Virus record (IMG/VR): IMGVR_UViG_3300022538_000807
Coordinates: 1-60,018 of that record
DNA length: 60,018 nucleotides
Source: a virus
Strand: one strand, 5' to 3'
Below are positions 11,654 through 60,018 of the stretch, piece after piece (positions within the stretch are counted from its first letter, which is position 1; every line of letters begins with the position of its first letter). The notes beneath the pieces were generated by a model. The model saw nothing but the letters and a program-made list of their open reading frames with translations, was not told the origin of the DNA and searched no databases. A program made the position numbers and the translations under genes.

Positions 11654-11659
11654 TTTTAC

Positions 11660-12835: not shown

Positions 12836-12836
12836 T

Positions 12837-16901: not shown

Positions 16902-17321
16902 TTAGCTTACAGACGGTACGATGTCGCAAGTTCCCTGTAGTGTACCACTAATAGTAACGGCATCCTCATAAGGTCCATCAAAAGTCATGTCTGTAAGAAT
17001 ACACTTGCCAGTAAATGTTTGTAAGCAACCAGGATCAGTTGTTGGCATTGAGAGAACTATGTCCAGAAGAGCAGTGTGACTGGTGTAGTGGTCTAAAAGT
17101 TCCTTCCTTCCGACATCAGTACAAATCCATAATCCGTCAAAGCTGATTGTCCATTCTCTACGTCCTACTAAAAATTCCCCATACCAGTTGGTATCTCTAT
17201 TTGTGATATCAATTGTTCCTTGCGTAAAATTGATTGAGAAACTTCTACTTTCTCCCAAAAGATTACCATCAACACTCAATGTCATACTGTGTCCCGAACG
17301 TCCAGCAGATAAACAAGCCAT
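16902..17321 (-). CDS. Major tail tube protein, 139 aa
   Basis: The protein has the size and strand pattern of TP901-1-like tail-tube subunits: 'VDGNLLGESRSFSINFTQGTIDITNRD' at the start, 'WTISFDGLWICTDVGRKELLDHY', then 'FTGKCILTDMTF...DAVTISGTLQG' at the end. It lies just upstream of the chaperone pair. It should polymerise as hexameric rings forming the tail tube. A divergent second copy is encoded far away at 48720-49187. GGAGG precedes the ATG. Confidence 0.8.
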   Translation of the reverse strand: MACLSAGRSGHSMTLSVDGNLLGESRSFSINFTQGTIDITNRDTNWYGEFLVGRREWTISFDGLWICTDVGRKELLDHYTSHTALLDIVLSMPTTDPGCLQTFTGKCILTDMTFDGPYEDAVTISGTLQGTCDIVPSVS

Positions 17322-20450: not shown

Positions 20451-21115
20451 TTTCTCTTTGCCCTCCCTTTATAATGAACCATGCAAGCATCTTCTATGTC
20501 TGTTGGATAAGCTCCGTAGATTCTTTTCTCTAATGGCAATATCTTATACCCATGAACTTCGTAAATTTGTCCCGAAATAATCTTGCAAGAATCCTCTTCT
20601 GGAAGCATTATTTGATTCAGAGAACTCTGTTTATTAAACCAACTTTGTTTCCACCCATCGATTTTCAAAGTTTCGGGAAAAAATCTAAAGTCAGGCTTTC
20701 CCCAAAGTTCGGCTTTGTTAATCCACTCAACCCAAAACCTCCGAATAATATCAGGTCTTTTATTATTAAGGGCAACTAACCCAGCATTATAATCTTGCCG
20801 CCCATTTTCATTACAATGCCTTCCTCGGTAACAAACGGCAACATCCCAATCGGCTTCAAAGATATTTGGTAAGGGTTTTTTTAGTTCATTGTCACAATCC
20901 AACACAATTATTGGCCTTGAGTTTATTGCTTTTATGATATAAGAATATAACAAACAAGCTGATACAGTAAAAAAATCTGCATTTTTTCCTGGAAAATTAA
21001 CCTTAATGAGCTGAAAATCGCCAGCATCAAATCTTTTTATGCTCTTTTCAAGTTCTTTGGCAAGAGTTAAATATGGTTCTCTAGGATTTGAAAAAGTAAG
21101 AAATAAAGGTCTCAT
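20447..21115 (-). CDS. GT-A glycosyltransferase (tandem paralogue B), 222 aa
   Basis: 'RPIIVLDCDNELKKPLPNIFEADWDVAVCYRG' carries the D-C-D metal motif of GT-A enzymes near residue 75, followed by 'QDYNAGLVALNNKRPDIIRRFW', the sugar/nucleotide pocket. It is clearly paralogous to the next gene upstream (21112-21822), sharing the opening 'PLFL..SN..EPYLT.A.EL', 'GDF' and the 'YKILPLE.RIY' end. Likely transfers one sugar in the late glycan pathway; specificity unknown. Confidence 0.75.
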   Translation of the reverse strand: MRPLFLTFSNPREPYLTLAKELEKSIKRFDAGDFQLIKVNFPGKNADFFTVSACLLYSYIIKAINSRPIIVLDCDNELKKPLPNIFEADWDVAVCYRGRHCNENGRQDYNAGLVALNNKRPDIIRRFWVEWINKAELWGKPDFRFFPETLKIDGWKQSWFNKQSSLNQIMLPEEDSCKIISGQIYEVHGYKILPLEKRIYGAYPTDIEDACMVHYKGRAKRK

Positions 21116-21822
21116 GGCTTTCTTCTAATTCCTTTGCTTTTTCCTTTATATTGAATCATATAAGCATCATTTGAATCTTTTGGAAGGGCAGCATAAATCC
21201 TTCTTTCAAGTGGTAGTATTTTATAATCACAGGTTTCGTAAATCTCTCCAGGAACTATTTTATAAGAATCTTCTTCTGGATTCCCCCGATTGCTTTCTGG
21301 AAGAATTATCTGATTTAATGCACCCTGATCAGAAAACCAGGAGTCAAGCCACCCATCGTCTATTAGTACTTGGGGAGACGGCTTTTCGTTACATTGCCTC
21401 CAGAATGCAATCATATATGTCCATTCAATCCAAAACTTTTTAATAACAGTAGGCCTTCTATTGTTGAGGGCAACAAATCCAGAACCATAGTCATGTCTTC
21501 CACTGTCTCTTCTTTGTGCCCAGCGAAAAGCTACTGCTATATCCCAATCTGTTTCGAATAAACAATCAAGAGGCTTTATTAATACAGCATCGCAATCAGT
21601 CAATATTATGGGTCTTGTCATAATTGCCTTTGATACATGAGGATATAATAGGCCATTTGCTTCGGCAAAGAAATTCATATCATTGCCTGGGCCCTCAACA
21701 AAAACATGATGGAAATCGCCTGCATCCAGATTCTTGATCTGCCTTCTCAGCTCATGAGCCATTGTTAAATATGGCTCTGCTCCATTGGAATAAACCAAAA
21801 ATAAAGGCTTTATATTTCCCAT
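21112..21822 (-). CDS. GT-A glycosyltransferase (tandem paralogue A), 236 aa
   Basis: Contains 'RPIILTDCDAVLIKPLDCLFETDWDIAVAFRW' (D-C-D motif) and 'HDYGSGFVALNNRRPTVIKKFW', then 'SWFSDQGALNQIILPE', as in family-8/32-like GT-A enzymes. It overlaps its downstream paralogue by 4 bp (ATGA), so the pair arose by tandem duplication and remained coupled. Differences around the acceptor side ('NEKPSPQVLIDDGW') suggest different acceptors. Confidence 0.75.
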   Translation of the reverse strand: MGNIKPLFLVYSNGAEPYLTMAHELRRQIKNLDAGDFHHVFVEGPGNDMNFFAEANGLLYPHVSKAIMTRPIILTDCDAVLIKPLDCLFETDWDIAVAFRWAQRRDSGRHDYGSGFVALNNRRPTVIKKFWIEWTYMIAFWRQCNEKPSPQVLIDDGWLDSWFSDQGALNQIILPESNRGNPEEDSYKIVPGEIYETCDYKILPLERRIYAALPKDSNDAYMIQYKGKSKGIRRKP

Positions 21823-22493
21823 TTATCGTATATCTTAAAATAATTATCCGCTGTTAATTCTTTAAGCTGCTGTTCAAATTCAGGCTTTAATACTCCATGA
21901 AATCGCTCGTTTAAATATAGCCCCCCAAGAACCTCTTTTGCTTTAGCATCCTCTATGTCTTTCATGTCCTGCGTAATATATTCGTGGCGTAATATTCCAA
22001 CGCCCCCTTCAATTGCATCTTTTGCTATCGAGTTCCATAGCGAAGCGTAATCTTCAACACACGCTTTTGTATTAATTCCACCATAGCGTATTGCATGCCT
22101 CTTGTGTCGTATTGTAAGAAGGACAACCATAATATGAACAGGATGTCGTATTAGACAAAAAACATTTTCTATCTTATTCTTTCTAAAAAACAGACCCATA
22201 AGCGATAGGCTTCCTGCCAAAACGGTATTCTTTGTTCCATCGGCATTAATGCGTTCAAGATAATCAACCATATTCTCTTCTATTGTTCTATCCAAATCCA
22301 ATGTATACCAATCATACGTCCTCTTTAAAAATCTTTCTCGTTGCTTCTCTGTCGGCTTGTCTGTAGATTTTATGTTTTTACAATAAATGCCATGTCGTGG
22401 ATAAAAAGCAAGATCGGGTCTTTTATGTGCAGGAAGGCATTTACGTAAATATGTTCCGCCTTGCCCCCCACATGCAACTATAATAATCCCCAT
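21810..22493 (-). CDS. Sulfotransferase-like P-loop protein, 227 aa
   Basis: The N-terminus 'IIIVACGGQGGTYLRKCL' sits where sulfotransferases have the 5'-phosphosulfate loop (G-x-x-G-T-x-L). 'NVFCLIRHPVHIMVVLL' near residue 118 matches the 3'-phosphate motif (R-H/D-P). Later 'ASLWNSIAK...VGILRHEYITQD' follows the order of the family. Probable role: PAPS-dependent sulfation of a glycan in the pathway encoded around it. The alternative is a non-sulfo P-loop kinase. It overlaps both neighbours (13 bp and 1 bp). Confidence 0.6.
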   Translation of the reverse strand: MGIIIVACGGQGGTYLRKCLPAHKRPDLAFYPRHGIYCKNIKSTDKPTEKQRERFLKRTYDWYTLDLDRTIEENMVDYLERINADGTKNTVLAGSLSLMGLFFRKNKIENVFCLIRHPVHIMVVLLTIRHKRHAIRYGGINTKACVEDYASLWNSIAKDAIEGGVGILRHEYITQDMKDIEDAKAKEVLGGLYLNERFHGVLKPEFEQQLKELTADNYFKIYDKWEI

Positions 22494-23122
22494 TATTTCT
22501 TCTCCAGGACTATAAAATTTCCTCTTTTCTCTTCTGATCCAGAATAAAATTCAATAATTTGATACTTGTTGGAATCAATTCTTTCTATCTGCCGGTTTAT
22601 CCAATCCTTTGCTTTTTTTCCACCTCGCAATCCGAAAATTAAAAGACAACTGTTTTTAAGGAGAGGATGAATATCTTCTAAAAATGAGTTAATAGGCCAA
22701 TGAAATCCCAATGCTAAGAAACTATAAACCAAATCAGGCCTGTAGCTTAGATCCTCCCATTTACATTTTTCAAGGTTAAATATCTCGACATTCTCCATTC
22801 CATTGGATCTACAAAATAGCCCTGTCACTTCTAGGGAATTATAAAAATCAGACTCACCTGTTCTTATTCCCGACAACTGTTTATCACCCGAATCCCCATC
22901 TGCTAGAACAAACAGGGTATCTTTCCAATTGAAATATTTAAAGAGAAAGACGCTTGCCCGTCCTATTCCTGAACCGACATCCAAGGCTATTTTAGGATTC
23001 AAATCTTTTAAATACCCTTCAATTCCTTCAATTTCTGATAATTGAAGAAAATCTTCTTTTTTATCATTACATTGAAGGTCAATATATTTCTGTACTTCTT
23101 CAGGAAAGCCTACCTCAATCAT
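22493..23122 (-). CDS. Class I SAM-dependent methyltransferase, 209 aa
   Basis: Motif I 'IALDVGSGIGRASVFLFKYF' (near residues 63-82) is the AdoMet-binding glycine loop, followed by an acidic 'FVLADGD' and 'DLVYSFLALGFHWP', typical of small-molecule methyltransferases such as sugar O-methyltransferases. The final block ('KYQIIEFYSGSEEKRGNFIVLEKK') is a beta hairpin. Position between the sulfotransferase and glycosyltransferase genes argues for glycan methylation. Confidence 0.7.
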   Translation of the reverse strand: MIEVGFPEEVQKYIDLQCNDKKEDFLQLSEIEGIEGYLKDLNPKIALDVGSGIGRASVFLFKYFNWKDTLFVLADGDSGDKQLSGIRTGESDFYNSLEVTGLFCRSNGMENVEIFNLEKCKWEDLSYRPDLVYSFLALGFHWPINSFLEDIHPLLKNSCLLIFGLRGGKKAKDWINRQIERIDSNKYQIIEFYSGSEEKRGNFIVLEKK

Positions 23123-23874
23123 CTTGTCCTTGCCCTCTCTAATCGCTTTTCTCTCAAAAGTATTCTATGCTCTCGCCTAATCCGCCTTTTTTCTTCAGGA
23201 GAAAACACCTGGTCTTTTGTTATATTGTGAATATGAGAAACAAAACAGTTAAGCGCAACTGCTGATTTATAGCCCGAGTGCCTTACCCTTTCATTATAAT
23301 CATCGTCATTTCCCCAGCAGGTAAGCCTTTCATCAAGCATTCCTACTTTATCAACCATTTCTCTACGCAACACCGCACAAAACATTGAAACATTATCATT
23401 GCAATAAACAAACCTTGAGGGAAGCTTATTTATCATATCATATCGCATATCTGGTCCTAGTAATTTATGTACGGGTATCATATAAGAAGCCCTCGGACAG
23501 TTAGAACCGATATTGTCAGTCAGTGGAGAAATCAAACCAATTTCAGGCTGCTCCTCCATTATTGCGATGAGTTTTGTTAACCACTTTTTAGTTACAAAAA
23601 CATCATTGCTCAGGGTTACCACATACTTGGAATCAGAAAGCTCTATCCCTTTATTCGTACCCCTTGCATAATACTGGTTTTCTTCAAACCGAAACACTAC
23701 GGAATCTTCAAAAGTCTTAACATATTTTTTTACCGTCTCATAATTCTCTTTCTTTGAACCATTGTCCACCCAGATTATTCGATAGGGCATGCGTGTTTTG
23801 TCCTTTACTGTTCTTAGACAATTTAATGTCATAATAGGAAAATTCCATCCCAAAATAGTGATGTCTATTCTCAT
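23119..23874 (-). CDS. Family-2 glycosyltransferase, 251 aa
   Basis: Classic GT2 layout: 'DITILGWNFPIMTLNCLRTV' strand, 'IIWVDNGSKKENY' nucleotide-binding loop, 'ENQYYARGTNKGIELSDSKYVVTLSNDVFV' with the Asn-Asp metal motif replacing DxD, and 'LTCWGNDDDYNERVRHSGYK' (ED-like catalytic region). Closest in style to rhamnosyl- or galactosyltransferases of O-antigen pathways. The 4-bp overlaps with both neighbours show co-translation. Confidence 0.8.
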   Translation of the reverse strand: MRIDITILGWNFPIMTLNCLRTVKDKTRMPYRIIWVDNGSKKENYETVKKYVKTFEDSVVFRFEENQYYARGTNKGIELSDSKYVVTLSNDVFVTKKWLTKLIAIMEEQPEIGLISPLTDNIGSNCPRASYMIPVHKLLGPDMRYDMINKLPSRFVYCNDNVSMFCAVLRREMVDKVGMLDERLTCWGNDDDYNERVRHSGYKSAVALNCFVSHIHNITKDQVFSPEEKRRIRREHRILLREKRLERARTR

Positions 23875-24635
23875 ATTTTATAAACTTTTCCAATTCCAAA
23901 ATCCACAAGTGCCTTTGTGATAATCTCCTTGTCTATGATTTTTTCCCCTCTCCATCGGATAGTACTACCTTTTTTTATATCGCTAATATTTTGAATATGC
24001 CTGATATGACAAACTTTATATCCTATAATCTCTTTTGTTGTGGACAAATTTGCACTGGCAAAACGATGATTCACATAATGCTGTTCAATAAAATCCCCCC
24101 ATTTCTTATAGATAGAACGAGGAAAAACATGGGTGAAAAAGGGCGAAGATTGTGCACGTACATGATATATAATATAATGCCTTAGAGTATCCCAAATAAT
24201 ATACTGTTTTATTATTAACTCGCTTCTTTTATCATCAATAAAAACAGAGTCTTTAATCTCCGCCATCAGGTCTTTATGGAAAAGGTCGTCTGAATCAATC
24301 CTTGTTATTGCAACGTGTTCAGTGTCTATTGTGTCATATCCAGCTACCATTGATGCTGGTCGCATTCGCTTGGGATTGGTTAGCCTGTCCTCCCCCTGCA
24401 CATGATAAACTTCCACCTTCGGATGCCAGGGCAAACTTTCCGTTATCGCCTTATGTCTATTTCCACAAATTGCGAATATTCTAAAATCCTGAAAGCTTTG
24501 ATTTAATAAACTAGGTAATGTGTATTTCTTAAAAATCCTAAAACGCTGCTTAATCCATTCAGGATTCAACTGGGCTTCCCCAGGTGGTCTATCAAAACTA
24601 AAAAATATCTCTACTATGTGAGTTATGTCGCTCAT
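23871..24635 (-). CDS. Putative rhamnosyltransferase, 254 aa
   Basis: 'EWIKQRFRIFKKYTLPSLLNQSFQDFRIFAI' and 'HVAITRIDSDDLFHKDLMAEI' match the putative rhamnosyl transferase family (PF11316): the 'R...F..yTLPSL..Q' opening and the R-x-D-x-D-D metal motif. It overlaps the HK97-gp10-like neck gene by 4 bp, so the glycan island is translationally fused to the virion genes at this edge. Sugar donor assignment is by family only. Confidence 0.7.
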   Translation of the reverse strand: MSDITHIVEIFFSFDRPPGEAQLNPEWIKQRFRIFKKYTLPSLLNQSFQDFRIFAICGNRHKAITESLPWHPKVEVYHVQGEDRLTNPKRMRPASMVAGYDTIDTEHVAITRIDSDDLFHKDLMAEIKDSVFIDDKRSELIIKQYIIWDTLRHYIIYHVRAQSSPFFTHVFPRSIYKKWGDFIEQHYVNHRFASANLSTTKEIIGYKVCHIRHIQNISDIKKGSTIRWRGEKIIDKEIITKALVDFGIGKVYKI

Positions 24636-27242: not shown

Positions 27243-27422
27243 TTATTTAGCCTTATCTGCCATTTCCACCATTTTATTCTCTGGTGGTTTTTCAAATAGC
27301 TTTGCTACCCCTTGTTCTATCCACTTTTGGGCAATATGTTCATAGGTATCGAATGTTTTGCCCTTCTTGTGGCAACAGCCGAAGTTTTTAAGAAATACTA
27401 CTTTTACCATAGTGCGATTCAT
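27243..27422 (-). CDS. Small phage packaging-region protein, 59 aa
   Basis: Starts in an ATGA overlap with the GT4 gene (ATG 27420-27422; a second ATG lies four codons in). 'VKVVFLKNFGCCHKKGKTFDTYEHIAQKWIEQGVAKLFEKP' resembles small proteins found next to phage connector genes ('LKN...G...A..LIE.G.A'). Its precise role is unknown. Confidence 0.6.
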   Translation of the reverse strand: MNRTMVKVVFLKNFGCCHKKGKTFDTYEHIAQKWIEQGVAKLFEKPPENKMVEMADKAK

Positions 27423-28594
27423 TTCTTTAACCTATCCTCAAATATTTTTAATGCTGGAATCCAATATTTATCCCATACTACATTCCAATCATATTCCAGA
27501 ACACTTTCTCTAGCATCTTTCTTTAGGCTTTTCCAATCGCCATGTTTCCAAAAGTTATAAGCTACTGCCAAACACTTCAAGATATTTGACACTCGTGGTT
27601 CTTCTCTCCATGTTCCAGTCGGCAACCAACGCAGGTCATCATCATCCACATCAATTAACCACCCTGATTTGCATAGTTCAGAACCGGTAGTGGTATCTGT
27701 GGTTATTGTTGGTATGCCACAGCTTTGTGCTTCAACTATGGGCATTCCAAATCCTTCGCCTTTTGTTGCCAGGCAAAACACATCAAATCCGTTATAGGTA
27801 TTACTTAACCAATTCTCATCTAGCCTATTAAAATCATAATATTGTTGATTTGGATAAGTTACATAATCAACAATCTCCAAATCTTCACCTATTCGAGCAT
27901 AGTCAATTGAGGAATCTCTTAGTCCTGGTGCGTGGGTATGAAGATATAACCTTGCCTCTGGATGTTGTTTGTGGAATTCTTTAAATGCCCGCATTAGAGG
28001 AATAAACCCCTTTCTATCATCACTATAGTTGAGCCCTACAGAACCAATGATAAAAAGATTCTCATCTTCCCAGTCAACGCTTTTCCTGAAGGCTTTTCGC
28101 CCCTCTGTAGATGGCTTAAAGACTTCCGTATTAATTCCTAGTGGGATATACAGCGGATCAAGTCCGATGGACTTCAGTTCTCTTGCGCCATGTTTAGACA
28201 TTGCAATTCGAATACCAGGACCTTTATTCTCTTCAATATTAGAATCTTTACCTAAAATAAGACTAGCATAGTGAGTTGCTATCCATTCTGTATCTATAGG
28301 AAGATAGGCAATCCATTTTTCATGTGGAAAATGACGCTTTTCTGCTAACAACCAAACATCCCAGAATGTAAAGATATAATCAAAATTCTCCTCTTTTATC
28401 ATCGCACAGAGATGTTTGAGGTTAAGTCCCTCAAAAATCTCAATACCTTCCCACTTGTGCCAACCACTATGAACATGCTTAGTGGCAATTCTTACAAAGT
28501 GTCCTGCTTTAACAAGCCTTCGCACAAGCTCCTTGGTAACAATCCCATAAGCCGAATTGCATATGGGGGTGGAACTATTCCAGAGGATTCGCAT
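27419..28594 (-). CDS. Family-4 GT-B glycosyltransferase, 391 aa
   Basis: The N-terminal Rossmann domain opens 'ILWNSSTPICNSAYGIVTKELVRRLVKAGHFV' (G-x-G-like acceptor loop). The C-terminal domain has 'LFIIGSVGLNYSDDRKGFIPLMRAFKEF' and the EX7E-type retaining motif 'EGFGMPIVEAQSCGIPTITT'. A full-length retaining GT4 enzyme that uses nucleotide sugars. It stands alone between two virion genes, apart from the main island. Confidence 0.85.
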   Translation of the reverse strand: MRILWNSSTPICNSAYGIVTKELVRRLVKAGHFVRIATKHVHSGWHKWEGIEIFEGLNLKHLCAMIKEENFDYIFTFWDVWLLAEKRHFPHEKWIAYLPIDTEWIATHYASLILGKDSNIEENKGPGIRIAMSKHGARELKSIGLDPLYIPLGINTEVFKPSTEGRKAFRKSVDWEDENLFIIGSVGLNYSDDRKGFIPLMRAFKEFHKQHPEARLYLHTHAPGLRDSSIDYARIGEDLEIVDYVTYPNQQYYDFNRLDENWLSNTYNGFDVFCLATKGEGFGMPIVEAQSCGIPTITTDTTTGSELCKSGWLIDVDDDDLRWLPTGTWREEPRVSNILKCLAVAYNFWKHGDWKSLKKDARESVLEYDWNVVWDKYWIPALKIFEDRLKK

Positions 28595-31967: not shown

Positions 31968-33029
31968 TTAGCTCACTTGTGCGGCAAGAACCACAAAAGC
32001 ACTTACGGTATTAGCCCCTCGATAAGGGGTTATAGGATCACCCATAATGGGTTGTCCATCTACCCTAAGCACCACTCGCCAGAACGTCTCGTCGGTTACG
32101 AATCCTACGTGTTCGTAGTTTTGTAATCGAAGTTGTAGATAATCCATATCACGAGACGCATCTATTGTCATTTCCCTATCAGCTATTACATAGTGACTAA
32201 AGTCAGCCAATAACAAATCCCCTGTAGTACCAAGAGCATAAGCCTTTTCACTGACTATAATCGGCAACCCTAGAAGTTTACGATCATTCACATTAACAAC
32301 ACTAACAACACCCGCCTCTACCGTATCAAGACGGAATATTTCCTCTAAAGTATCAGAATTCATAATCCAGACCGCCCTATTCCAGCTATCAGGCAACAAC
32401 CTCAATGCCATCCCAACAACATCGTCGTAAAGGATGGAGTTGGCCTGTGCCCTAGGAACTGTAATAAGAGCACCAGAATTTATGACTCCCATCGGTTGAT
32501 TCACACCAGTGCCGTTAATGAAACTATCGTCTTCAATAAAGCGTAAAGCTCTACCAAAGCTAATCTTCATGAAATCACCAAATTTACCATAATCGGCCTC
32601 TAGCTCATTACTGACAAAACAGCCGCCAACAAGTTTGTGCGGAGTAAGTTCCAGTTCACCGAGAGCGGGTTTAGAGACTCTATATGCCTTGCTGCCCGCT
32701 TCCTCCAGCCATCTAAAAGTGATTCCACCAAAAAGGCTAGAGACACGACTGGTTTCAACCATTCGCCTCACCTTTAAGGAATCACTTGTGGCTTTAAGAA
32801 CGGTAGCTCGTGGACGCACAATTGCATCCTCAAGAGCAACGCTGTAAATCTCCTTTGCCCATTGTTCGGGAACAAGATACCCACCTTGAGAATCATCCCC
32901 AATTTCCATGTGGCCTGCTGTCTTTCGTAATAGCCGACTGTCCTTTATGCCAGAAGCACAAGCTTTGCGAACTCTGACTAAGAACTCACCAAGACTTCTG
33001 AATCCGCCTGTTCCATCGTCTGTACTCAT
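31968..33029 (-). CDS. Second HK97-fold major capsid protein, 353 aa
   Basis: Aligns along its length with the capsid gene just upstream: 'KTAGHMEIGDDSQGGYLVPE', 'VVRPRAT'-like 'IVRPRATVLKATSDSLK', 'ELTPHKLVGGCFVSNELEAD', 'FIEDDSFINGTGVNQPMGVI', 'LLGLPIIVSEKAYALG', 'FSHYVIADREMTIDAS'. These are the N-arm, E-loop, P-domain and A-domain landmarks of HK97 subunits. Unlike the first copy, it lacks the N-terminal delta/scaffold domain, having only about 25 residues before the conserved arm. It may form a different capsomer (for example pentamers) or co-assemble. Confidence 0.85.
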   Translation of the reverse strand: MSTDDGTGGFRSLGEFLVRVRKACASGIKDSRLLRKTAGHMEIGDDSQGGYLVPEQWAKEIYSVALEDAIVRPRATVLKATSDSLKVRRMVETSRVSSLFGGITFRWLEEAGSKAYRVSKPALGELELTPHKLVGGCFVSNELEADYGKFGDFMKISFGRALRFIEDDSFINGTGVNQPMGVINSGALITVPRAQANSILYDDVVGMALRLLPDSWNRAVWIMNSDTLEEIFRLDTVEAGVVSVVNVNDRKLLGLPIIVSEKAYALGTTGDLLLADFSHYVIADREMTIDASRDMDYLQLRLQNYEHVGFVTDETFWRVVLRVDGQPIMGDPITPYRGANTVSAFVVLAAQVS

Positions 33030-33041
33030 TTTTAACCTCTA

Positions 33042-34394
33042 TTAGCTTGTAGCGGCATTAAGAACAACAAACGGTGACATAGAATGAGCACCGTACCTGG
33101 TTGTGAGCGTAGCTGCAGGCCAACACATGCCAGCAACTCTAAGCACGAACCTCCATGCTGTCTCATCGTAATCAAATCGTAGATGAGAACTTGCATCGAT
33201 GGTTATAGGTTGACGGTCTCCGATTAAGTAATACTTAAAATCGAAGAAACCGATATCTCCCTGTACACCAAGTCCCTGCATTTTTTCACTCACGATAACG
33301 GGTCTCCCGAAAATCTTCATTGGAAGAGGTTCGTTCGCTCCGCCATCTGCACTAATCCAGATCATGTTCTTACCAGAAGCATCAGCAGCATTGCCCGTTC
33401 CCAACTCAATAAGCTCAGCTAAAACTTCAGGGTTAATTACCCAGAAGGCCCTGCCTAATGAAGGAGTAAGCATTGCTTGATACATTTCTGCTAAATCTTC
33501 CAGCATCACCCTATTTGCCGTGTTACGAAAAACACTAAGCAAACATCCGCATTGAAGAATTCCCAAAGGCTGTCCACCACCCGTACCATTGATGAATGCG
33601 TCATCCTCGAAAAATCCCCAGGCAGTTCCAAACTGTCTCTTAATGAGTGGTTGCAATGCGATTGCACTGTCAGCCAAAAGTTCATTAGAGGCATAGGTCA
33701 TGCCGGCGAGTTTATGAGGAACGAGTTCCATCTGTCCAAATTCAGGTTTGGTAGGAGTTTTCTGTTTAGTTTCGGCAGTCCAATAGGCTATGATTCCACC
33801 ATATACAGAAGTCACATGAGAAGTGTCATTGATGTATGGAATTTTTAAAGAATCAGTAGTCATCTTGAGAATGGTTGCCCTAGGTCTTACGACTGCCCCT
33901 TCAAGAGCGATTTCGTAAAGGTCTTTCAGGAAAATCTCAGGAACTAAGAATCCACCCTGTGTGTCGTCTCCAATTTCCATGTGTCCGGCTGTTTTAGCTA
34001 GAGGATCAGTATATCTTCCGGCAGGGTCTACCCAAGTTAAGCGAGAATCAATAGCACTTCGGTTCATTCTGAACCTTCTGATTGAAGTCAGATATTCTCC
34101 GAATGTTTTGAATCCCTTGGCTTTTTCTGCTGCTAGTTTTTCTTCAGCGGTAGGTTCTGCAACCTTTACTTTCTCTTTTGCCTTATCAACGGAATCCTGT
34201 AAGAGTTCTTTCAACTGGTCTTGGACATAAGGATCAACTTGCTCTTTCACGAGATCCATTAGTTGCTCATCTATTGTCTTTTTAGTCTGCTCTGCGACTA
34301 AATCTTGTAGTTCACTTTCTTTCATTGTCTTTCCATAGTATGCTGACTTTTGAATTTCAGCGATTAGACGAATACCCCCGTTGTTAACCAACAA
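33042..34394 (-). CDS. HK97-fold major capsid protein with delta domain, 450 aa
   Basis: The first ~110 residues are helical and Glu/Lys/Gln-rich ('ELQDLVAEQTKKTIDEQLMDLVKEQ...'), an HK97-type delta scaffold removed by the protease. The capsid core begins near 'AKTAGHMEIGDDTQGGFLVPE' and continues with 'VVRPRATILKMTTDSLKIP', 'ELVPHKLAGMTYASNELLAD', 'FFEDDAFINGTGGGQPLGIL' and 'IFGRPVIVSEKMQGLG'. The start is uncertain: TTG 34392-34394 gives the form listed; ATG 34323-34325 (MKESELQ) behind GGAAAG is the main alternative. Confidence 0.9.
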   Translation of the reverse strand: MLVNNGGIRLIAEIQKSAYYGKTMKESELQDLVAEQTKKTIDEQLMDLVKEQVDPYVQDQLKELLQDSVDKAKEKVKVAEPTAEEKLAAEKAKGFKTFGEYLTSIRRFRMNRSAIDSRLTWVDPAGRYTDPLAKTAGHMEIGDDTQGGFLVPEIFLKDLYEIALEGAVVRPRATILKMTTDSLKIPYINDTSHVTSVYGGIIAYWTAETKQKTPTKPEFGQMELVPHKLAGMTYASNELLADSAIALQPLIKRQFGTAWGFFEDDAFINGTGGGQPLGILQCGCLLSVFRNTANRVMLEDLAEMYQAMLTPSLGRAFWVINPEVLAELIELGTGNAADASGKNMIWISADGGANEPLPMKIFGRPVIVSEKMQGLGVQGDIGFFDFKYYLIGDRQPITIDASSHLRFDYDETAWRFVLRVAGMCWPAATLTTRYGAHSMSPFVVLNAATS

Positions 34395-37655: not shown

Positions 37656-38315
37656 CTATTCAATAAAATCCTTTACTGAATTCTCACTGTTTATTACCCT
37701 TCGACATAATAAAAAACAATCGCTTTTATAATTGTTTATATAATCGTTATCATTTTTAACTGCGTATTTATAACCAGCCTCTTTTACGGTATCTACAGTC
37801 CATTTGTTATAAACATTATAAGGATATGCAAAAGAAACAATAGGAAGCTTAATCTTTTCTTCAATCATCTCTTTCGATTCGGCTATTTCTCGCCACAATG
37901 CCCTTCTTGATAAACATGAGAAATTAAGATGGTACAGTCCATGACTGCCAATTTCATGTCCTGCGTTCAATACGTTATGTATCTCACTCCAATCCAACAA
38001 AGCCATTAGGTGCAATTCCCTTTTACGCCATCGAGCGGTATCTCCAACTAGCTTAGACACAATAAATACCGTAGCTGAAAAATTAAACCTATCTAAAACT
38101 GGCATAGCAGTATCAGAAAAATCCTTATATCCATCATCGAAGGTTAATATAATAGCCTTTTTTTGTTTAATATCCTTAAAAAATTCTTTGAGAGAAACTC
38201 CCTTATATCCACGTTCAGCCAGCCATTGCATTTCTAATCCGAAGGTTGAGGGGGAAACTGCCCAAGGATCTTCGCTATTATTTGAGATACTGTGGTATGC
38301 TAAAATTTCAGTCAT
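37656..38315 (-). CDS. Polysaccharide deacetylase (NodB homology), 219 aa
   Basis: 'KAIILTFDDGYKDFSDTAMPVLDRF' holds the catalytic Asp and metal Asp of NodB-domain carbohydrate esterases; 'GHEIGSHGLYHLNFSCLS' provides the two metal histidines; 'VSFAYPYN' is motif 3. It removes acetyl groups from N-acetylated sugars in a polysaccharide. Start is ATG 38313-38315 two bases after the stop of the radical SAM gene, with AAGGGAT upstream. No signal peptide, so it acts in the cytoplasm on a precursor or is released at lysis. Confidence 0.85.
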   Translation of the reverse strand: MTEILAYHSISNNSEDPWAVSPSTFGLEMQWLAERGYKGVSLKEFFKDIKQKKAIILTFDDGYKDFSDTAMPVLDRFNFSATVFIVSKLVGDTARWRKRELHLMALLDWSEIHNVLNAGHEIGSHGLYHLNFSCLSRRALWREIAESKEMIEEKIKLPIVSFAYPYNVYNKWTVDTVKEAGYKYAVKNDNDYINNYKSDCFLLCRRVINSENSVKDFIE

Positions 38316-38316
38316 A

Positions 38317-39642
38317 TTATCCCTTGTTGTGTTTTCCTGTTTCCTCAACATAGGCTTTCATCCGTCTGACATTATCCTTCATCTGGCATATCGGAAGGAA
38401 TCTATTATGAATCATCGGCTCATATTCTCTTTCAACTTTCTTCCCGTTTTTCATAACCCAGCCATATTGATTATACTTCCTGAAATCTTTACTCAGAATC
38501 TCACAGTTGTATCTATCGGGATTGTTCCATATCGGACTTCCCGGAAGCGGGGTGAATGTGGAAAGCGTAATCATATCAAAATCAAGCCTACTAATATAAT
38601 CCCTATTTAACTCAGGAGTGTCTGCCCTTTCTCCTGGCGTTCCCATCATAAATAATACCTTAATTTTTAAACCTGCCTTCTTTGCATTTCTGCATCCTTC
38701 TAGCATCGCTTCCGCATCTATATGTTTATCCAAAAAATCGAGGACTCGCTGATCTCCGCTTTCAACTCCTGGCCAAATCTCCCTGCATCCAGCAGTTACC
38801 AGAGATTCACATATCTCAGAATCAAGCTGATCGGCTCGTACTAGACACCGCCAGATAATATCAAGCTTTTTAAATTGATCGCACAGATTTAGACATCTTC
38901 TTCTATTCAATGTCATATTATCATCCCATATCCCGAACTGCCTTATTCCAGTAGATTCGACAATCTCTTTTATCTCCGAAACGATATTAAATATTGACCT
39001 ATATCTTGTTTTTCGCTCCCACATAGATTGGGATGCACAAAAAGCACAATTAAATGAACATCCTCTGGAAGTTATAAGACTCTCGCTTCCACCGCTGACA
39101 TAGCTTTCTCTGTTTACGAAAATATCCTCGCCATAACTTCCCTCAATTAACGACCTGTCGGGAAAAGGAATAGCATCAAGATCCTCAATAAATCCATTGG
39201 GGCAATAAATTTTTTTAAGTTCTCCCTTCTCAACATCTCTAACCATATCCGATATAATAAGCTCACCCTCGCCTATGCCTATCGCATCAAATAAATCACC
39301 CTTAGAAATATCCTGATACATCGCCGTAGCATGAGTACCACCAAGAAATATCTTTATACCAGGAAGATGTTTCCTTATCCATATAGCACATTCCACATTC
39401 ATCGGATATTCTAGTGTTGTTCCACTCATACAGATAATATCCGCATCCTCGAAGTTGATAAAATCCTCTTTCCTTTGGGGGCGTACCAACCTTGCTTCGT
39501 AACCTTCTCTTTTAAGAATTGTAGCTAAATATAGCGGTCCTAATGCAATGTGCATATTTTGTCTAACAAGCCAGGGACTAGGAGTTTCAACAAAAACTAT
39601 CTTCAAGTCTGCCTGTCTTTTAATAAATCCGATATCACCCAT
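38317..39642 (-). CDS. B12-binding-domain radical SAM enzyme, about 441 aa
   Basis: The N-terminal half is cobalamin-binding-like ('GPLYLATILKREGYEARLV', 'FEDADIICMSGTTLEYPMNVECA', 'KIFLGGTHATAMYQDI'). The central domain has the 4Fe-4S motif 'SRGCSFNCAFCASQ' (CxxxCxxC) and radical SAM barrel blocks 'FGIWDDNMTLNRRRC', 'IWPGVESGDQRVLDFL'. Such enzymes do difficult C-methylations, rearrangements or epimerisations, often on antibiotics or polysaccharides. The start is unclear: ATG 39640-39642 lies inside the previous gene; TTG 39604-39606 sits right at its stop. A full-length B12 radical SAM gene in a virion operon is very unusual. Confidence 0.85.
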   Translation of the reverse strand: MGDIGFIKRQADLKIVFVETPSPWLVRQNMHIALGPLYLATILKREGYEARLVRPQRKEDFINFEDADIICMSGTTLEYPMNVECAIWIRKHLPGIKIFLGGTHATAMYQDISKGDLFDAIGIGEGELIISDMVRDVEKGELKKIYCPNGFIEDLDAIPFPDRSLIEGSYGEDIFVNRESYVSGGSESLITSRGCSFNCAFCASQSMWERKTRYRSIFNIVSEIKEIVESTGIRQFGIWDDNMTLNRRRCLNLCDQFKKLDIIWRCLVRADQLDSEICESLVTAGCREIWPGVESGDQRVLDFLDKHIDAEAMLEGCRNAKKAGLKIKVLFMMGTPGERADTPELNRDYISRLDFDMITLSTFTPLPGSPIWNNPDRYNCEILSKDFRKYNQYGWVMKNGKKVEREYEPMIHNRFLPICQMKDNVRRMKAYVEETGKHNKG

Positions 39643-40253
39643 ATCATAACTGACAACCGTACCCTTCCATGCCTCATGAACCCTCCGGATATATATTCGA
39701 TAATTGGAGTTTCTGACCAGAGGATTTGCCATTTGGATGCCATTCCTTTAAGGCGTTCCGAACCATCAACTTCGGTTTGCCAAGGCGTTTCTCCGTCTCG
39801 CAAAACATCGAGAAGATATGACTTTTGCCAAATTGCAGTTTGCAGTGACATAGAAAATTGCTTGTCAAGAGGATATTCCCTGAAACCCTTGTGAACATTA
39901 GTGCTAATTGCATGGTTAATGAACCATTTGTCTGGAGCGTTTAGCTTCACGCAACCCACGTTGCCCTCACAAAGACTTTCTGCTTGCTCGATTCTTTTAG
40001 TGTCCACTATCTTATCGATAATATAATCATCCAGAATTAACAGAAACTTATCTTCTTTAGATTGTTTAAGATAATTAATTATCCCACTAGCCCACGACAC
40101 TCCACCAGTATAAAAAACCGCACCATCTATATGGTCTGTCTCAGTTATTATTTCAGTCTGATATGGATTATCTGGCCAGTTTTTCTTATAAAAGTGCGTG
40201 AAGATCGGAATTAAAAAATTATATCTATTGCAGGTTGAGACAATAACCCTCAT
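39603..40253 (-). CDS. Glycosyltransferase-like protein, 216 aa
   Basis: Opens 'MRVIVSTCNRYNFLIPIFTHFYKKNWP', has an acidic loop 'FLLILDDYIID' in place of DxD, and 'WQTEVDGSERLKGMASKW' with 'EYISGGFMRHGRV' near the end, in the order of GT-A enzymes. Start ATG 40251-40253 overlaps the previous stop (TGATG) with GGGAG upstream. Probable sugar transferase with unknown specificity. Confidence 0.6.
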   Translation of the reverse strand: MRVIVSTCNRYNFLIPIFTHFYKKNWPDNPYQTEIITETDHIDGAVFYTGGVSWASGIINYLKQSKEDKFLLILDDYIIDKIVDTKRIEQAESLCEGNVGCVKLNAPDKWFINHAISTNVHKGFREYPLDKQFSMSLQTAIWQKSYLLDVLRDGETPWQTEVDGSERLKGMASKWQILWSETPIIEYISGGFMRHGRVRLSVMIWVISDLLKDRQT

Positions 40254-40885
40254 CAATACTCCCAACCATCCTCTATGGGCAATAATCCCTTCAGCCTTCT
40301 ACCTCTTCTTGTCGTCTTACGGTGGTGTTTCACGTGCCTTCCCAAAGTAGGAAACTCCTTTAATATTTTACTTGATAATCCTTGCTTGTGAATATCAAAC
40401 ATCGCTTTCCAACAGGGTGCTCCATGATGAACATACCGATGAAATTTCTTGTAATTATTTACGTTTATTAACTGAAAAACAGGATGAAGATAAAGCATCC
40501 ATTCTCCACTCTTATAAGGAAATCCATCAAGCCTCTTTCTTCCTATGCCACCAACGCCGAATGTATCATCCTCCATCGTTTCTAACATGATGGTCACACA
40601 TGGCTTTACTACCTCTATATCAGAATCAAATACTAAGGCATACTTCGTTTCAGCCAAGCCAATGCCCATGTGCATACCCGGGCCATGATTAACATTTTTT
40701 CCAAGCGAGACAACTGTTGTTAAATCAGATGCCAGGCTTTTTACATAGGAAGCACATCGATCATTAGGATCAGAACCGTCAATAATAATGATAGGTATAT
40801 CAGAATAGAATTTGCGAACTGAATTATATGCTCTTTCTATGGAATCTTTCGTATTGTAGCATACTGTGATTCCAGTTATTTCCAT
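40253..40885 (-). CDS. Family-2 glycosyltransferase, 210 aa
   Basis: 'EITGITVCYNTKDSIERAYNSVRKFYSDIPIIIIDGSD' is a GT2 N-terminus, 'NHGPGMHMGIGLAETKYALVFDSDIEV' carries the D-S-D metal motif, and 'VHHGAPCWKAMFDIHK' is the acceptor side. Truncated relative to full GT2 enzymes, but all nucleotide-sugar contacts seem present. ATG 40883-40885 overlaps the methyltransferase end. Confidence 0.75.
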   Translation of the reverse strand: MEITGITVCYNTKDSIERAYNSVRKFYSDIPIIIIDGSDPNDRCASYVKSLASDLTTVVSLGKNVNHGPGMHMGIGLAETKYALVFDSDIEVVKPCVTIMLETMEDDTFGVGGIGRKRLDGFPYKSGEWMLYLHPVFQLINVNNYKKFHRYVHHGAPCWKAMFDIHKQGLSSKILKEFPTLGRHVKHHRKTTRRGRRLKGLLPIEDGWEY

Positions 40886-41349
40886 ATCCACCAATCGATA
40901 TCCTCTGTATTTAATTTAAATCTATTCCTCCCACAAAATTCATTAACCGCCTTGGGAACACCCGGCCATCGCCTTCCATAATCATGTCCGGAAACCAATC
41001 CCCCTTTTTTTACTTTAGGATAATATAAGCTAATGTCTTGCAGTACAGTTTCATATTGATGGTCGCCATCGATGTAAACAAAGTCAAGGCTCTCATTGTC
41101 AAATTTATTTACGGCATCTATTGATTTAGCTTTTGCCCATTCAATCTTATTCTCATGGTCCTTTAATTGTGAATGAGCAACGCCTTCCATCTTTCCCCTT
41201 GCTAAATATGGATCTATCAAAAAGACTTTCTTAATGTCTAATTCTTCAAGATAAACTACAGCATAAGCACCAGCATATATGCCTATCTCGATTCCTATTA
41301 AATTATGTTTGTTTAATAGCTGCTTTAATGCTGGCCTTAAATTGCTCAT
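40876..41349 (-). CDS. Class I methyltransferase (Methyltransf_24-like), 157 aa
   Basis: 'LIGIEIGIYAGAYAVVYLEELDIKKVFLIDPY' is AdoMet motif I plus the acidic strand-2 end; 'DFVYIDGDHQYETVLQDISLYYPKVKKGGLVSGHDY' is the diagnostic block of Methyltransf_24 sugar O-methyltransferases. The last residues (IDWWIWK) overlap the next glycosyltransferase start. Likely methylates a glycan. Confidence 0.8.
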   Translation of the reverse strand: MSNLRPALKQLLNKHNLIGIEIGIYAGAYAVVYLEELDIKKVFLIDPYLARGKMEGVAHSQLKDHENKIEWAKAKSIDAVNKFDNESLDFVYIDGDHQYETVLQDISLYYPKVKKGGLVSGHDYGRRWPGVPKAVNEFCGRNRFKLNTEDIDWWIWK

Positions 41350-46955: not shown

Positions 46956-48140
46956 TCATATCCAAGTTATCCCTACCTCTGGTTTGTCTATCCGCATAAC
47001 CAGATATCTAAGTGCATCCATCGCATGATCGTCTTCCTTTACCGGCTTCTCCTTATCCTCATCATATCGGTAGAGTGAAAATTCGTCTATCAGGTGAATG
47101 CAGCTCTTAAATATCTTTAGCCTTACCGACTGTGGATCATCTGTAACCGGTCTTATTCTAGCGTTGACCTTCAGAATGCCCATGTCTACATCATTATTAG
47201 CAGGCACAACAACAAAGCCTAAGTGTTGAAGTTCTTTGTTTTGTTGTTTCTTTGATGGATCTGCTTCATATGTAATTTTGGAATCTAGGTGTTTAGCATG
47301 CTCTTCTAATAAACGCCCTCTTTCATAGTGTTCTTTATAAATATAAAGTACATCATCATCATCTAATGCTCCATCTAAAACAACAAATGGATTATTATAT
47401 CCTTGATCAATACCGCCCCCCCTTCTCCAGTCATTGGGAATATCAAAGTCATCAATAATATTATGATTACAAAAATCAGCATATATAAGCCCTTCGGCTT
47501 TACCAAATATCCCCTCATATCTGAGCCTGAACTGAGTCGGGGTCAGCATACGCTTCGCCCTTTCATACTCCTCTTTGGGAAAATACGGACTGTCCACAGA
47601 GCGAAACTGGATAAAATCTATATCGCCTTCCTCGCCCCTTAGCCGGCGTTCCTTATCCTTCTCAATCTCTTTATGCACCCAGTTCAAACTTATGGGGGTA
47701 AATGTACAGAGAATCCTTCCCTGTGTACGAGACACCCTACCCTGCATCATAACCCATATATCAGGCTTCATGAGCGATGCTTCATCAGCCCATATTGCCT
47801 GTGCCGTGATGCCTTCGATTGATTCCGGTTTGTCTGCGGAGCGGAGGAAGAAGTTTATTCCTGTTCTGGTTTTGTAGGTGGAGTCGGCTTTATTGAATAT
47901 CCCCCAGCCTTTTGGTACAAGCTCTTGAAATTTCTGTAAGGTACTTTGCTGAAGCATCTTATAGGTGGGAGCTACTATAATATAATCACCCCTCCCTTTT
48001 TGCATGGCTTCATTAACAATCCATATCGAGCCAAGAGTTGTCTTCCCCGATTGAACACCAGCTACTAAAAAAACAAATCGCTTCTTACTATTCCACGCTT
48101 TGATTTGCCATTTGTGAAGTTCAATCCGGCTTGTTTCCAT
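46956..48140 (-). CDS. Terminase large subunit, 394 aa
   Basis: Walker A-type 'FLVAGVQSGKTTLGSIW' (near residues 24-40), Walker B-like 'QAIWADEASLMKPD', coupling motif 'GRILCTFTPISLNW', and a C-terminal RNase H-like nuclease with 'GGGIDQGYNNPFVVLDGALDD' (first Asp) and 'KPVKEDDHAMDALRYL' (last Asp). This is the ATP-driven DNA packaging motor and cutter. It closely follows a 59-aa basic gene whose tail overlaps its start. Packaging type cannot be assigned from sequence alone. Confidence 0.9.
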   Translation of the reverse strand: METSRIELHKWQIKAWNSKKRFVFLVAGVQSGKTTLGSIWIVNEAMQKGRGDYIIVAPTYKMLQQSTLQKFQELVPKGWGIFNKADSTYKTRTGINFFLRSADKPESIEGITAQAIWADEASLMKPDIWVMMQGRVSRTQGRILCTFTPISLNWVHKEIEKDKERRLRGEEGDIDFIQFRSVDSPYFPKEEYERAKRMLTPTQFRLRYEGIFGKAEGLIYADFCNHNIIDDFDIPNDWRRGGGIDQGYNNPFVVLDGALDDDDVLYIYKEHYERGRLLEEHAKHLDSKITYEADPSKKQQNKELQHLGFVVVPANNDVDMGILKVNARIRPVTDDPQSVRLKIFKSCIHLIDEFSLYRYDEDKEKPVKEDDHAMDALRYLVMRIDKPEVGITWI

Positions 48141-48300
48141 GCTTTACTTCTAACTCATCAAATATTTCTGCTCCTCTTTCTTTTAGGACTTTCCCGAATC
48201 GCTTGAGCGTCTTTTCTATTTCAACCTGCTTCCCCAAAAACCATTTCTTTGATTTTCTCTTCATTTTCCTTCCGGCTTGTTTCCATCTGGTTTTTGTCAT
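48121..48300 (-). CDS. Basic hypothetical protein, 59 aa
   Basis: Lys/Arg-rich helix ('KMKRKSKKWFLGKQVEIEKTLKRFGKVLKERG'). ATG 48298-48300 or ATG 48262-48264 behind GGAAGG. Its last 20 bp overlap the terminase start. A 16-bp segment of its 5' end is repeated exactly at the terminase start. Unknown role. Confidence 0.5.
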   Translation of the reverse strand: MTKTRWKQAGRKMKRKSKKWFLGKQVEIEKTLKRFGKVLKERGAEIFDELEVKHGNKPD

Positions 48301-48319: not shown

Positions 48320-48466
48320 CTAACACCAATCAAGATGATTTTTGACAATTATCCACCCTGTTCCATTGCATTTATGACATTTTGCTTCTCTAGTGCAATT
48401 GTCTTTTTTATCAGATTGTTGACGCTTACCGGTCCCCTTGCATATCGAACATAAAATGCCCCTCAT
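48320..48466 (-). CDS. 48-aa DnaJ-type zinc-knuckle protein
   Basis: Two CxxCxGxG repeats, 'CSICKGTG' near residue 6 and 'CHKCNGTGW' near residue 30, as in the DnaJ zinc domain. ATG overlaps the previous stop. Related in design to the protein at 58055-58201. May bind zinc and unfolded protein. Confidence 0.6.
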   Translation of the reverse strand: MRGILCSICKGTGKRQQSDKKDNCTREAKCHKCNGTGWIIVKNHLDWC

Positions 48467-48630
48467 CTTTTCTTCTTTAAAAGCCCTTCTTTTCTAAAGT
48501 CGTTTTCAAATTTCTTATAAAGTGCATGATGCTCATTATCATCAATATAAATATCGTTTTTCCGTGGTTTCGTTTCGGCAGCACAAAGAGCAACGAGTAT
48601 TCCTTTAACCTTTCTTATTCTTATTGCCAT
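48463..48630 (-). CDS. Hypothetical protein, 55 aa
   Basis: ATG 48628-48630 follows TTGAGGTAAATAA. 'VALCAAETKPRKNDIYIDDNEHHALYKKFENDFRKEG' is well-formed coding sequence of a type found as small hypothetical proteins in phages. Function unknown. Confidence 0.6.
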   Translation of the reverse strand: MAIRIRKVKGILVALCAAETKPRKNDIYIDDNEHHALYKKFENDFRKEGLLKKKR

Positions 48631-48649
48631 TTATTTACCTCAATATAAA

Positions 48650-48710
48650 GAAAATGGGGGGTTAGCAATTATTGACCATACGAGTTCGACTCTCGCACTC
48701 CCCCATTTTC
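48650..48710. terminator. 11-bp inverted repeat hairpin, possible bidirectional terminator
   Basis: GAAAATGGGGG (48650-48660) is perfectly complementary to CCCCCATTTTC (48700-48710). In the minus-strand RNA the stem is followed by UUUAU, so partial termination after the tail-tube-like gene is plausible. The same stem contains the tRNA-like element. Confidence 0.5.
48656..48704 (+). tRNA. Truncated tRNA-like element (acceptor plus T arm only)
   Basis: On the plus strand GGGGGGT (48656-48662) pairs with ACTCCCC (48697-48703, one G-U), followed by a discriminator-like C. Between them lie 'TA' and 'GC' as at tRNA positions 8-11, then only about 13 nt, then a T arm: ACGAG-TTCGACT-CTCGC (48680-48696) with the invariant TTCGA loop. 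D and anticodon arms are missing, so it cannot decode. It is either a decayed tRNA gene or a deliberate minihelix. Confidence 0.45.
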
Positions 48711-48719
48711 CTATTTATT

Positions 48720-49187
48720 CTATAACCGTGTAAAGCTACGATTTCCCCAAAGCTCGCCATTAATAGTAACAATATTTTCACGATCTTCAAGAAATTCATT
48801 AGTAGCCGAAACTACAAGGCTTGCTTCACCAACAAACGCTTGCGAGCTTACACCACGAACTGGTATTGTAAGAAGTATATCCACTAAATTAACACTGTGT
48901 TTTGCATAGAAATCCAAGAGTGCGTTTTGCCCAATGTCACCACAAATCCATAGTTCATCGAAACACATTTTCCAGTCTTCGCATTTTGTTAAAAATTTTG
49001 GCCATCGCTTAATGTCTTCTTTTATAAGGAAAATTGCTTCTTGCATAGAACTAATGAAAAAGCTTCTGCTTTCTCCTAAAGGATTCTCACCAAGAAATAA
49101 TGTCACAGAGGGTCTTGGAGGTCCCTTGCAAATGGAAACAAATTTAGTCAAAAATTGCCACATTGCTTTTTCGTTTATTTTATTCAC
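48720..49187 (-). CDS. Second tail-tube-like protein, 155 aa
   Basis: Clear paralogue of the major tail protein at 16902-17321: shared 'LGESRSF', 'W..FL....W...FDELWICGDIGQNALLDFYAKH', 'DILLTIPV', 'QAFVGEASLVV', 'EDRENIVTINGEL'. It adds 25 N-terminal residues and is more basic and diverged. GTG 49185-49187 behind GGAGG. It lies between putative small and large terminase genes, far from the tail module. It could replace tube subunits at an end, control tube length, or interfere with related phages. Confidence 0.75.
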   Translation of the reverse strand: MNKINEKAMWQFLTKFVSICKGPPRPSVTLFLGENPLGESRSFFISSMQEAIFLIKEDIKRWPKFLTKCEDWKMCFDELWICGDIGQNALLDFYAKHSVNLVDILLTIPVRGVSSQAFVGEASLVVSATNEFLEDRENIVTINGELWGNRSFTRL

Positions 49188-49378
49188 TTCGCCTCCGGCT
49201 TGCCTTTATCAAACTTTCGACTATCATCCTTAGTTTGCATATCCCATCTATGGCCACAAATATTACATGTTACATCCAGCCATCCAATAAAATCAGAAGG
49301 ATCAAAAAGACGATAATTTAATTTTATATTATGAGAACCGCATTTACTACACTCTGGATTTATTTCAAAAGGTTTCAT
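49184..49378 (-). CDS. Zinc-ribbon protein, 64 aa
   Basis: 'CSKCGSHNIKLNYRLF...WLDVTCNICGHRWDMQ' is a canonical four-cysteine zinc ribbon of the transcription-factor type. Both ends overlap neighbours at a repeated 'KPE(A/V)K-stop' / GGAGG junction. Confidence 0.65.
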   Translation of the reverse strand: MKPFEINPECSKCGSHNIKLNYRLFDPSDFIGWLDVTCNICGHRWDMQTKDDSRKFDKGKPEAK

Positions 49379-49695
49379 TTCACCTCCGGCTTTCCCCCAT
49401 CGTGATTTATAATAACCGTAAGGGGCTTAAATTCCCCCTCCTCATCCTGACCACCTGTTACAGAGGAGGGAAGCATCTTGGTTATCCAACCGTAGAACAA
49501 TGCTTTGTTATGTGGATTTTTGTTTGCCCACTCTTCTAAACCACCTGTTCCACCCAAGCGTTCAAATACTTCAAGGAAGGCATTTTTGAGGTTGGTGAAT
49601 CGAGATTTAGCACCTTTAGGCTTACCTGGATTCCCACGCAGAAATTTCCCTTCTTTATCCCGAATTTCTCCGTTTCTTTCGGTTTCGTTATTCAT
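49375..49695 (-). CDS. Putative small terminase subunit (DUF5681-type N-terminus), 106 aa
   Basis: 'IRDKEGKFLRGNPGKPKGAKSRFTNLKNAFLEVFERLGG' has the 'GxFxxGNPGxPKGxxSR' opening of DUF5681 proteins, which lie upstream of large terminases, and continues 'EEWANKNPHNKALFYGWITKMLP'. Likely binds packaging sites with its basic N-terminal segment. Position, not domain proof, supports the terminase role. Confidence 0.55.
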   Translation of the reverse strand: MNNETERNGEIRDKEGKFLRGNPGKPKGAKSRFTNLKNAFLEVFERLGGTGGLEEWANKNPHNKALFYGWITKMLPSSVTGGQDEEGEFKPLTVIINHDGGKPEVK

Positions 49696-59696: not shown

Positions 59697-59990
59697 TTAT
59701 TCCTTCAATCGTTTTGATGAAACAACAATTTCGGGAAGATTGACTTTAAAAAAATCCACGATTTCTTCTTTTGATTCACATACCATTTTAGCAATTCCGG
59801 CTCGTACCATTTCTTTTCCGCTTTCGGCTTGACGAATACCTTTGTAAAAATTCAAAAAATTGATTATCAATTTACCGTCTATCTGCATCAAGTTCACTTT
59901 TGTAGCGTGAGGAGATTCCAAAATTTCTTTTAATTTGGTAAGGCTTAGTTCTAATAAACCTTCACACGTCTTCTCTCTTTTCTTATCCAT
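59697..59990 (-). CDS. Hypothetical helical protein, 97 aa
   Basis: Helical throughout ('LLELSLTKLKEILESPHATKVNLMQIDGKLIINFLNFYKGIRQAESG'). The style recalls small phage proteins that precede recombination genes, but no family is recognised. The gene spans the assembly junction; its first 113 bases are repeated at the left edge. ATG 59988-59990 behind AGGAGG. Confidence 0.6.
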   Translation of the reverse strand: MDKKREKTCEGLLELSLTKLKEILESPHATKVNLMQIDGKLIINFLNFYKGIRQAESGKEMVRAGIAKMVCESKEEIVDFFKVNLPEIVVSSKRLKE

Positions 59991-60018
59991 TGATTGACCT
60001 CCTAATTTTAAATAGTAA
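59878..60018. repeat. Terminal direct repeat, right copy (circle junction)
   Basis: Identical to 1-141. It joins the ends of the circular map inside the 97-aa gene. Confidence 0.95.

Follow-up and report, generated by a model that had tools for sequence, protein, structure and literature searches.

A gene between the terminase genes of a two-capsid-protein phage is very probably a diverged copy of its tail-tube gene

The region between the terminase genes

The window, by which we mean the whole stretch of DNA analysed, is the whole of virus record IMGVR_UViG_3300022538_000807 (60,018 bp). Within it, the genes for the small and the large terminase (terS and terL) are separated by a gap of 1.23 kb, which holds a gene for a 64-aa protein, a 155-codon gene that we refer to as the orphan, and small open reading frames (ORFs). 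The features of this region are:

46956..48140, minus strand: large terminase, TerL (PF03237/PF04466; phrog_2, E=1.5e-45)
48121..48300, minus strand: small basic insert ORF, 59 aa, overlapping the terL start (from sequence only)
48125..48132, minus strand: junction repeat AAGCCGGA at the terL start
48271-48278, 49194-49201 and 49385-49392: other AAGCCGGA copies at insert gene junctions, close to where the last small ORF starts, at the end of the 64-aa gene and at the end of terS, respectively
48463..48630, minus strand: small insert ORF, 55 aa (called in the same way)
48649..48711: hairpin GGAAAATGGGGG ... CCCCCCATTTTCC, directly after the orphan stop (fold z-scores -3.3 and -3.8)
48720..49187, minus strand: orphan, 155 aa, GTG start; very probable paralogue of the main tail-tube protein (TTP) by homology, tree and AlphaFold2 model
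49184..49378, minus strand: 64-aa CxxC...CxxC protein, zinc-ribbon-like by sequence (zinc-ribbon matches all sub-threshold)
49375..49695, minus strand: inferred small terminase, TerS (by position and homology)

We called 49375..49695 TerS from its homologues, which immediately precede terL in relatives (L003, L005, L006, L008, L009 and L130); library searches with it returned no named family. The 64-aa gene overlaps the terS stop by 4 nt, and its own stop overlaps the start codon of the orphan by a further 4 nt. No relative of the 64-aa protein was found in IMG/VR. In 12 out of 12 relatives that share TerL at 60-69% identity, terS directly abuts terL. Because the terS-terL sites of these relatives are empty, the 1.2-kb stretch can be read as an accessory insert, a reading that is firm within the relatives at hand. 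Four of the seven genome copies of AAGCCGGA fall within this 1.27 kb, against a whole-genome chance expectation of 1.3, and a 35-nt repeat family occupies the same four places. The location of the AAGCCGGA copies near the insert gene junctions suggests that the insert was gained by recombination at short junction repeats, a step that we infer. Promoter-like sites are fewer here than expected by chance (5 found, 10.8 expected).

The hairpin behind the orphan holds a T-arm-like GAGTTCGACTCTC on the plus strand and resembles a tRNA that lacks the D and anticodon arms. ARAGORN and Rfam returned no match for it, and it was rejected as a tRNA or known RNA. A separate observation concerns the small terminases of loci L003-L009, whose near-identical TerL proteins (69% identical to that of the window) are preceded by two unrelated TerS types. 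L004 has the HTH type and the remaining loci have the GKKKGTPNKFTNLK type, and only the C-terminal tail EFHPLKVIISNNEDK is common to both. It looks as if the DNA-binding part of TerS has been swapped among these loci.

The orphan gene and its genome

An earlier note on this DNA had described the orphan as intact and preceded by a strong ribosome site, and both points hold: the frame is open for 155 codons, and GGAGG stands before the GTG start with a 4-nt spacer. The gene lies between the terminase genes as had been proposed, with the inferred terS on one side and terL on the other, and its product carries the N-terminal extension that had been noticed, which is about 15-18 aa long and predicted, with low confidence, to be helical. 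The protein had been called basic but is in fact acidic, with a pI of 5.48 and a net charge of about -2; the main TTP of the phage is more acidic (pI 4.44, net charge about -9). The separation from the tail module, given earlier as more than 31 kb, is 31.4 kb along the record; as the genome is circular or terminally redundant, the opposite path measures about 27.6 kb. The codon usage of the orphan resembles that of other genes (rank 39 of 45), which is uninformative because spurious ORFs on the opposite strand score equally. The orphan is a real, intact and unusual gene.

The two ends of the record (1-141 and 59878-60018) are identical over 141 bp. The genome is therefore circularised or terminally redundant, and is probably complete. 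Nearly all genes of the record are on the minus strand. No integrase was found among the ORFs scanned, which were part of the genome's ORFs, and a prophage-encoded defence is therefore not supported. Two adjacent genes (31968-33029 and 33042-34394) encode paralogous HK97-type major capsid proteins (MCPs) that are 43-47% identical. Because this tandem pair recurs in about 40 IMG/VR loci of the same clade, the two-MCP pair is a stable lineage signature. Four more paralogous pairs encode glycosyltransferase-like proteins (20447-21115/21112-21822), fibre-like proteins (7505-8824/29880-31025), small unknown proteins (7232-7492/28847-29179) and Lar-like restriction alleviation proteins (1542-1934/2516-2680). 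This phage genome retains many duplicates. Within the structural module, between the head and tail genes, lie glycosyltransferase-like, methyltransferase-like, radical-SAM/B12 and polysaccharide deacetylase genes (17943-24635, 27419-28594 and 37656-40894).

Homology to the phage's own tail-tube protein

The main TTP is encoded in the tail module:

16528-16881: tail-chaperone (TAC)-like gene flanking the main TTP gene (PF11836)
16902..17321, minus strand: main TTP, 139 aa (PF06199, E=5.8e-11; phrog_1407, E=1.8e-21)
17521-17943: tail terminator flanking the main TTP gene (phrog_176)

BLASTP aligned the orphan with this protein at 37% identity over 132 aa (E=1e-23), and the pair came up at E=3e-21 when 305 window ORFs were compared with one another. 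A TTP profile retrieved the orphan at 2.5e-40, with the orphan itself among the training sequences of the profile. Searched alone, the orphan matched no Pfam family at E<=1 and no PHROG; it can be assigned to PF06199 by its significant homology with the main TTP, a PF06199 protein. Its gene is placed at terL, outside the tail module, and the neighbourhood of terminator and chaperone is occupied by the main TTP.

Models of the orphan and the TTP were built with AlphaFold2 from six-row alignments; the alignment for the orphan included TTPs, so its fold model is not independent of the homology. The pLDDT was 74 for the orphan and 75 for the TTP, and the predicted strand order was equal in both. 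The orphan model adds an N-terminal helix, and the helix in its 36-56 loop is longer than in the TTP. The best BFVD match of the orphan was an entry named major tail protein TP901-1 (E=7.9e-5), and PDB matches found with Foldseek were weak (E 0.02). In VIA-align, the best row for the orphan was 8yln, a tail-tube monomer bound to DSR2 (Z 7.1, rmsd 4.8, 104 aligned), level with other tube proteins. The main TTP gave Z 7.9 with the DSR2-bound monomer and matches the same structures, so the orphan is not set apart from it by fold. These matches support a predicted tail-tube fold, not a function.

The sequence blocks that the earlier note had seen to be shared with the TTP are real, and BLAST, profile, tree and fold evidence bears out its proposal that the terminase genes flank the gene of a second, diverged tail-tube protein. 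The orphan is almost certainly a diverged TTP paralogue. Chance similarity or membership of another family, which that note had set against its own proposal, did not emerge and is ruled out by the BLASTP, all-against-all and TTP profile matches.

Origin and distribution of the duplicate

To place the orphan among its homologues, TTPs of relatives were gathered through their capsid and terminase genes and a tree of 17 TTP sequences was built. In this 17-row tree, the orphan is the sister of the phage's own TTP (support 99/97). Its branch has a length of 1.94 compared with 0.035 for the own TTP, about 55 times longer, and was flagged as a long branch by the tree tool. When the orphan was forced outside the clade formed by the TTPs of two-MCP phages, lnL was 8.5 worse (p-AU 0.06), so that an outside placement is not formally rejected. 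Because the sister placement is supported at 99/97 but p-AU is 0.06, an in-genome duplication of the phage's own TTP gene is favoured rather than proven. Synonymous sites are near saturation, with 23 identical codons compared with 18.2 +/- 3.1 expected, and the split between the orphan and the TTP is therefore not recent.

Four relatives that all carry the same two-MCP signature, G009 (51 kb), G010 (57 kb), G023 (53 kb) and G024 (49 kb), have one TTP each. The evidence for the absence of a second TTP from these four is strong but not final, the records being possibly incomplete. An apparent second TTP in G010 (38910-39014) proved false and is a methyltransferase-like protein. The orphan protein had no match in INPHARED, PLSDB or IMG/VR, whereas the main TTP matched 195 phage records. 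Its motif pair retrieved nothing from IMG/VR, and neither the main TTP nor a TerL profile brought up another orphan in scans of genome contigs. The earlier note had suggested looking for other phages with an orphan TTP near terL; these searches found none, and the orphan gene is carried by one genome only among the records searched. In L129, a 28-kb IMG/VR record, two TTP homologues lie side by side (9860-12844 and 13065-13484), an ordinary TTP beside a TTP domain at the N terminus of a 995-aa fibre-like protein. L129 indicates that TTP duplicates are reused structurally.

Changed constraint on the orphan

Retention of the phage's own TTP residues by the orphan was compared with conservation in the clade, which gave a rho of 0.04 for the orphan and of 0.46-0.73 for true orthologues. 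The orphan retains own-TTP residues at 19 of 47 conserved sites versus 22 of 61 variable sites. It keeps 4 of 21 residues in loop 36-56, which holds the TNRD motif of the clade, 2 of 9 in the PYED loop and 9 of 14 in strands 22-35. The capping or length-measuring role that the earlier note had suggested for the protein finds little support: near-complete relatives manage with a single TTP, and tube-conserved residues have been lost as readily as variable ones. A neutral simulation to equal divergence, crude in that it has no indels and one substitution model, was stop-free in 0.6% of runs, with a mean of 4.3 stops. Because residue retention is blind to conservation and the frame is open despite saturated synonymous sites, these results, read together, point to a gene maintained for its protein product, though no longer in the role of a tube subunit of the former kind. 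Decay with luck is possible. We read the orphan from its sequence as a lineage-specific duplicate with changed constraints.

Possible roles of the orphan protein

Host defences such as DSR2 sense tail-tube proteins, and the prophage and satellite defences Tab, Tai and Rta target tail assembly. Our best explanation, held tentatively and at somewhat less than an even chance, is that the orphan protein is a soluble TTP mimic that acts on TTP partners, with a tail-assembly form and a defence-decoy form about equally probable. A phage-borne, fast-evolving TTP copy outside the tail module has the features expected of an inhibitor, decoy or dominant-negative, that was derived from its target, and the slot of the orphan is the home of one known tail-assembly defence, Tab.

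By homology and the tree, the phage's own tail-tube gene was most probably duplicated in this lineage, and the duplicate sits in the accessory insert of 1.2 kb that the empty terS-terL sites of relatives delimit. Its strand, the 4-nt overlaps and the ribosome site suggest that it is a late-operon gene. After the duplication it diverged fast, losing residues that the tube subunits of its clade have in common in loop 36-56 and the PYED loop and gaining the predicted N-terminal helix, with its frame kept open. The product would fold as a TTP-like soluble monomer that builds no tubes and competes for TTP partners. One possible target is a host sensor of monomeric TTP of the DSR2 type, which would be soaked up; the other is tail assembly in related phages, which would be disturbed. 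A TTP-like monomer unable to switch on DSR2 would be a shield.

Among the points that weigh against a mimic, retention of residues independently of conservation is also expected of a decaying gene, and an inhibitor would need self-immunity because the product of a late gene on the same strand would encounter the tails of its own phage. We consider it somewhat unlikely that the full proposal holds, in which the phage's own TTP has been turned into a soluble mimic in the terS-terL slot that blocks a TTP-sensing defence or the tail assembly of competitors, and would be the first TTP-derived decoy or inhibitor. If the protein is a mimic, it would offer a testable case of a structural gene made into a weapon or a shield by duplication.

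Alternatively, the orphan may have been recruited from the TTP by duplication as a minor virion component, either a decoration of the tail tube or a single special ring at its top, at its bottom or in the neck. Other parts of phages make such use of the TTP fold. A TTP-like fold with an extra N-terminal helix in the model, the late-operon position, and the fusion in L129 of a TTP domain to the fibre-like protein beside an ordinary TTP are consistent with this role. However, the gene is encoded outside the tail module and is missing from relatives with otherwise similar structural genes, and the protein has lost residues common to the tube subunits of the clade. We regard a virion component as unlikely. 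Its confirmation would mean that a second tube-type protein had been added to the tail, which would also be unusual.

A third explanation is that the duplicate is under relaxed selection and heading for loss, with no present function. This would account for retained residues that ignore family conservation, for the very long branch (1.94) and for the retention of the gene in no second genome in the INPHARED, PLSDB and IMG/VR searches. It sits less well with 155 codons that are open despite saturated synonymous sites, and with the strong ribosome site and tight gene overlaps, and we judge it rather unlikely.

Comparison with known systems

Two narrower explanations draw on known systems, and the likelihoods that we give them overlap with that of a mimic overall. 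Tab is a tail-assembly blocker of Pseudomonas phages such as JBD26. Its gene invariably occupies the terS-terL slot, and the accompanying anti-Tab gene overlaps terS; the product is an 83-aa protein unlike known proteins that targets the tape measure, and it is encoded on the opposite strand with its own promoter for expression in the prophage (PMC10884400). The orphan is likewise an accessory gene in the terS-terL slot, and its small 64-aa companion overlaps terS by 4 nt. The earlier note had suggested that the protein might poison the tails of rival phages or satellites, for which Tab would be a striking precedent in position. The orphan might accordingly be imagined as a Tab-like blocker of rival phages, a TTP mimic that would act either by poisoning tubes during their growth or by titrating the tail chaperone. 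The 64-aa neighbour might then be the antidote, and co-polymerisation of a tube-like protein would be plausible. The orphan differs from Tab, however, in being a TTP paralogue that is unrelated in sequence, of another size and presumed target, and on the late strand with the terminases, and promoter-like sites near it are below chance. A Tab-like role is improbable in our view.

DSR2 recognises monomeric TTP, and its known phage inhibitor is DSAD1 (PMC10981675). The orphan could be a decoy for a DSR2-like defence, binding the sensor of tail-tube monomers without switching it on. The monomeric tail-tube fold is the ligand of this sensor, and DSR2-bound tube chains are among the best fold matches of the orphan; these chains are an equally good match for the main TTP. 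DSAD1 is not a TTP copy, and no TTP-derived decoy turned up in the literature found. We hold a DSR2 decoy to be improbable to the same degree as a Tab-like blocker.

A further comparison is with tail tubes of the TP901-1 type (PF06199, phrog_1407). The orphan differs from these in having no Pfam or PHROG match of its own, in its N-terminal extension, in the loss of loop residues conserved in the clade and in its site at terL, but it is clearly homologous to them through the phage's own TTP, and its predicted strand order is the same.
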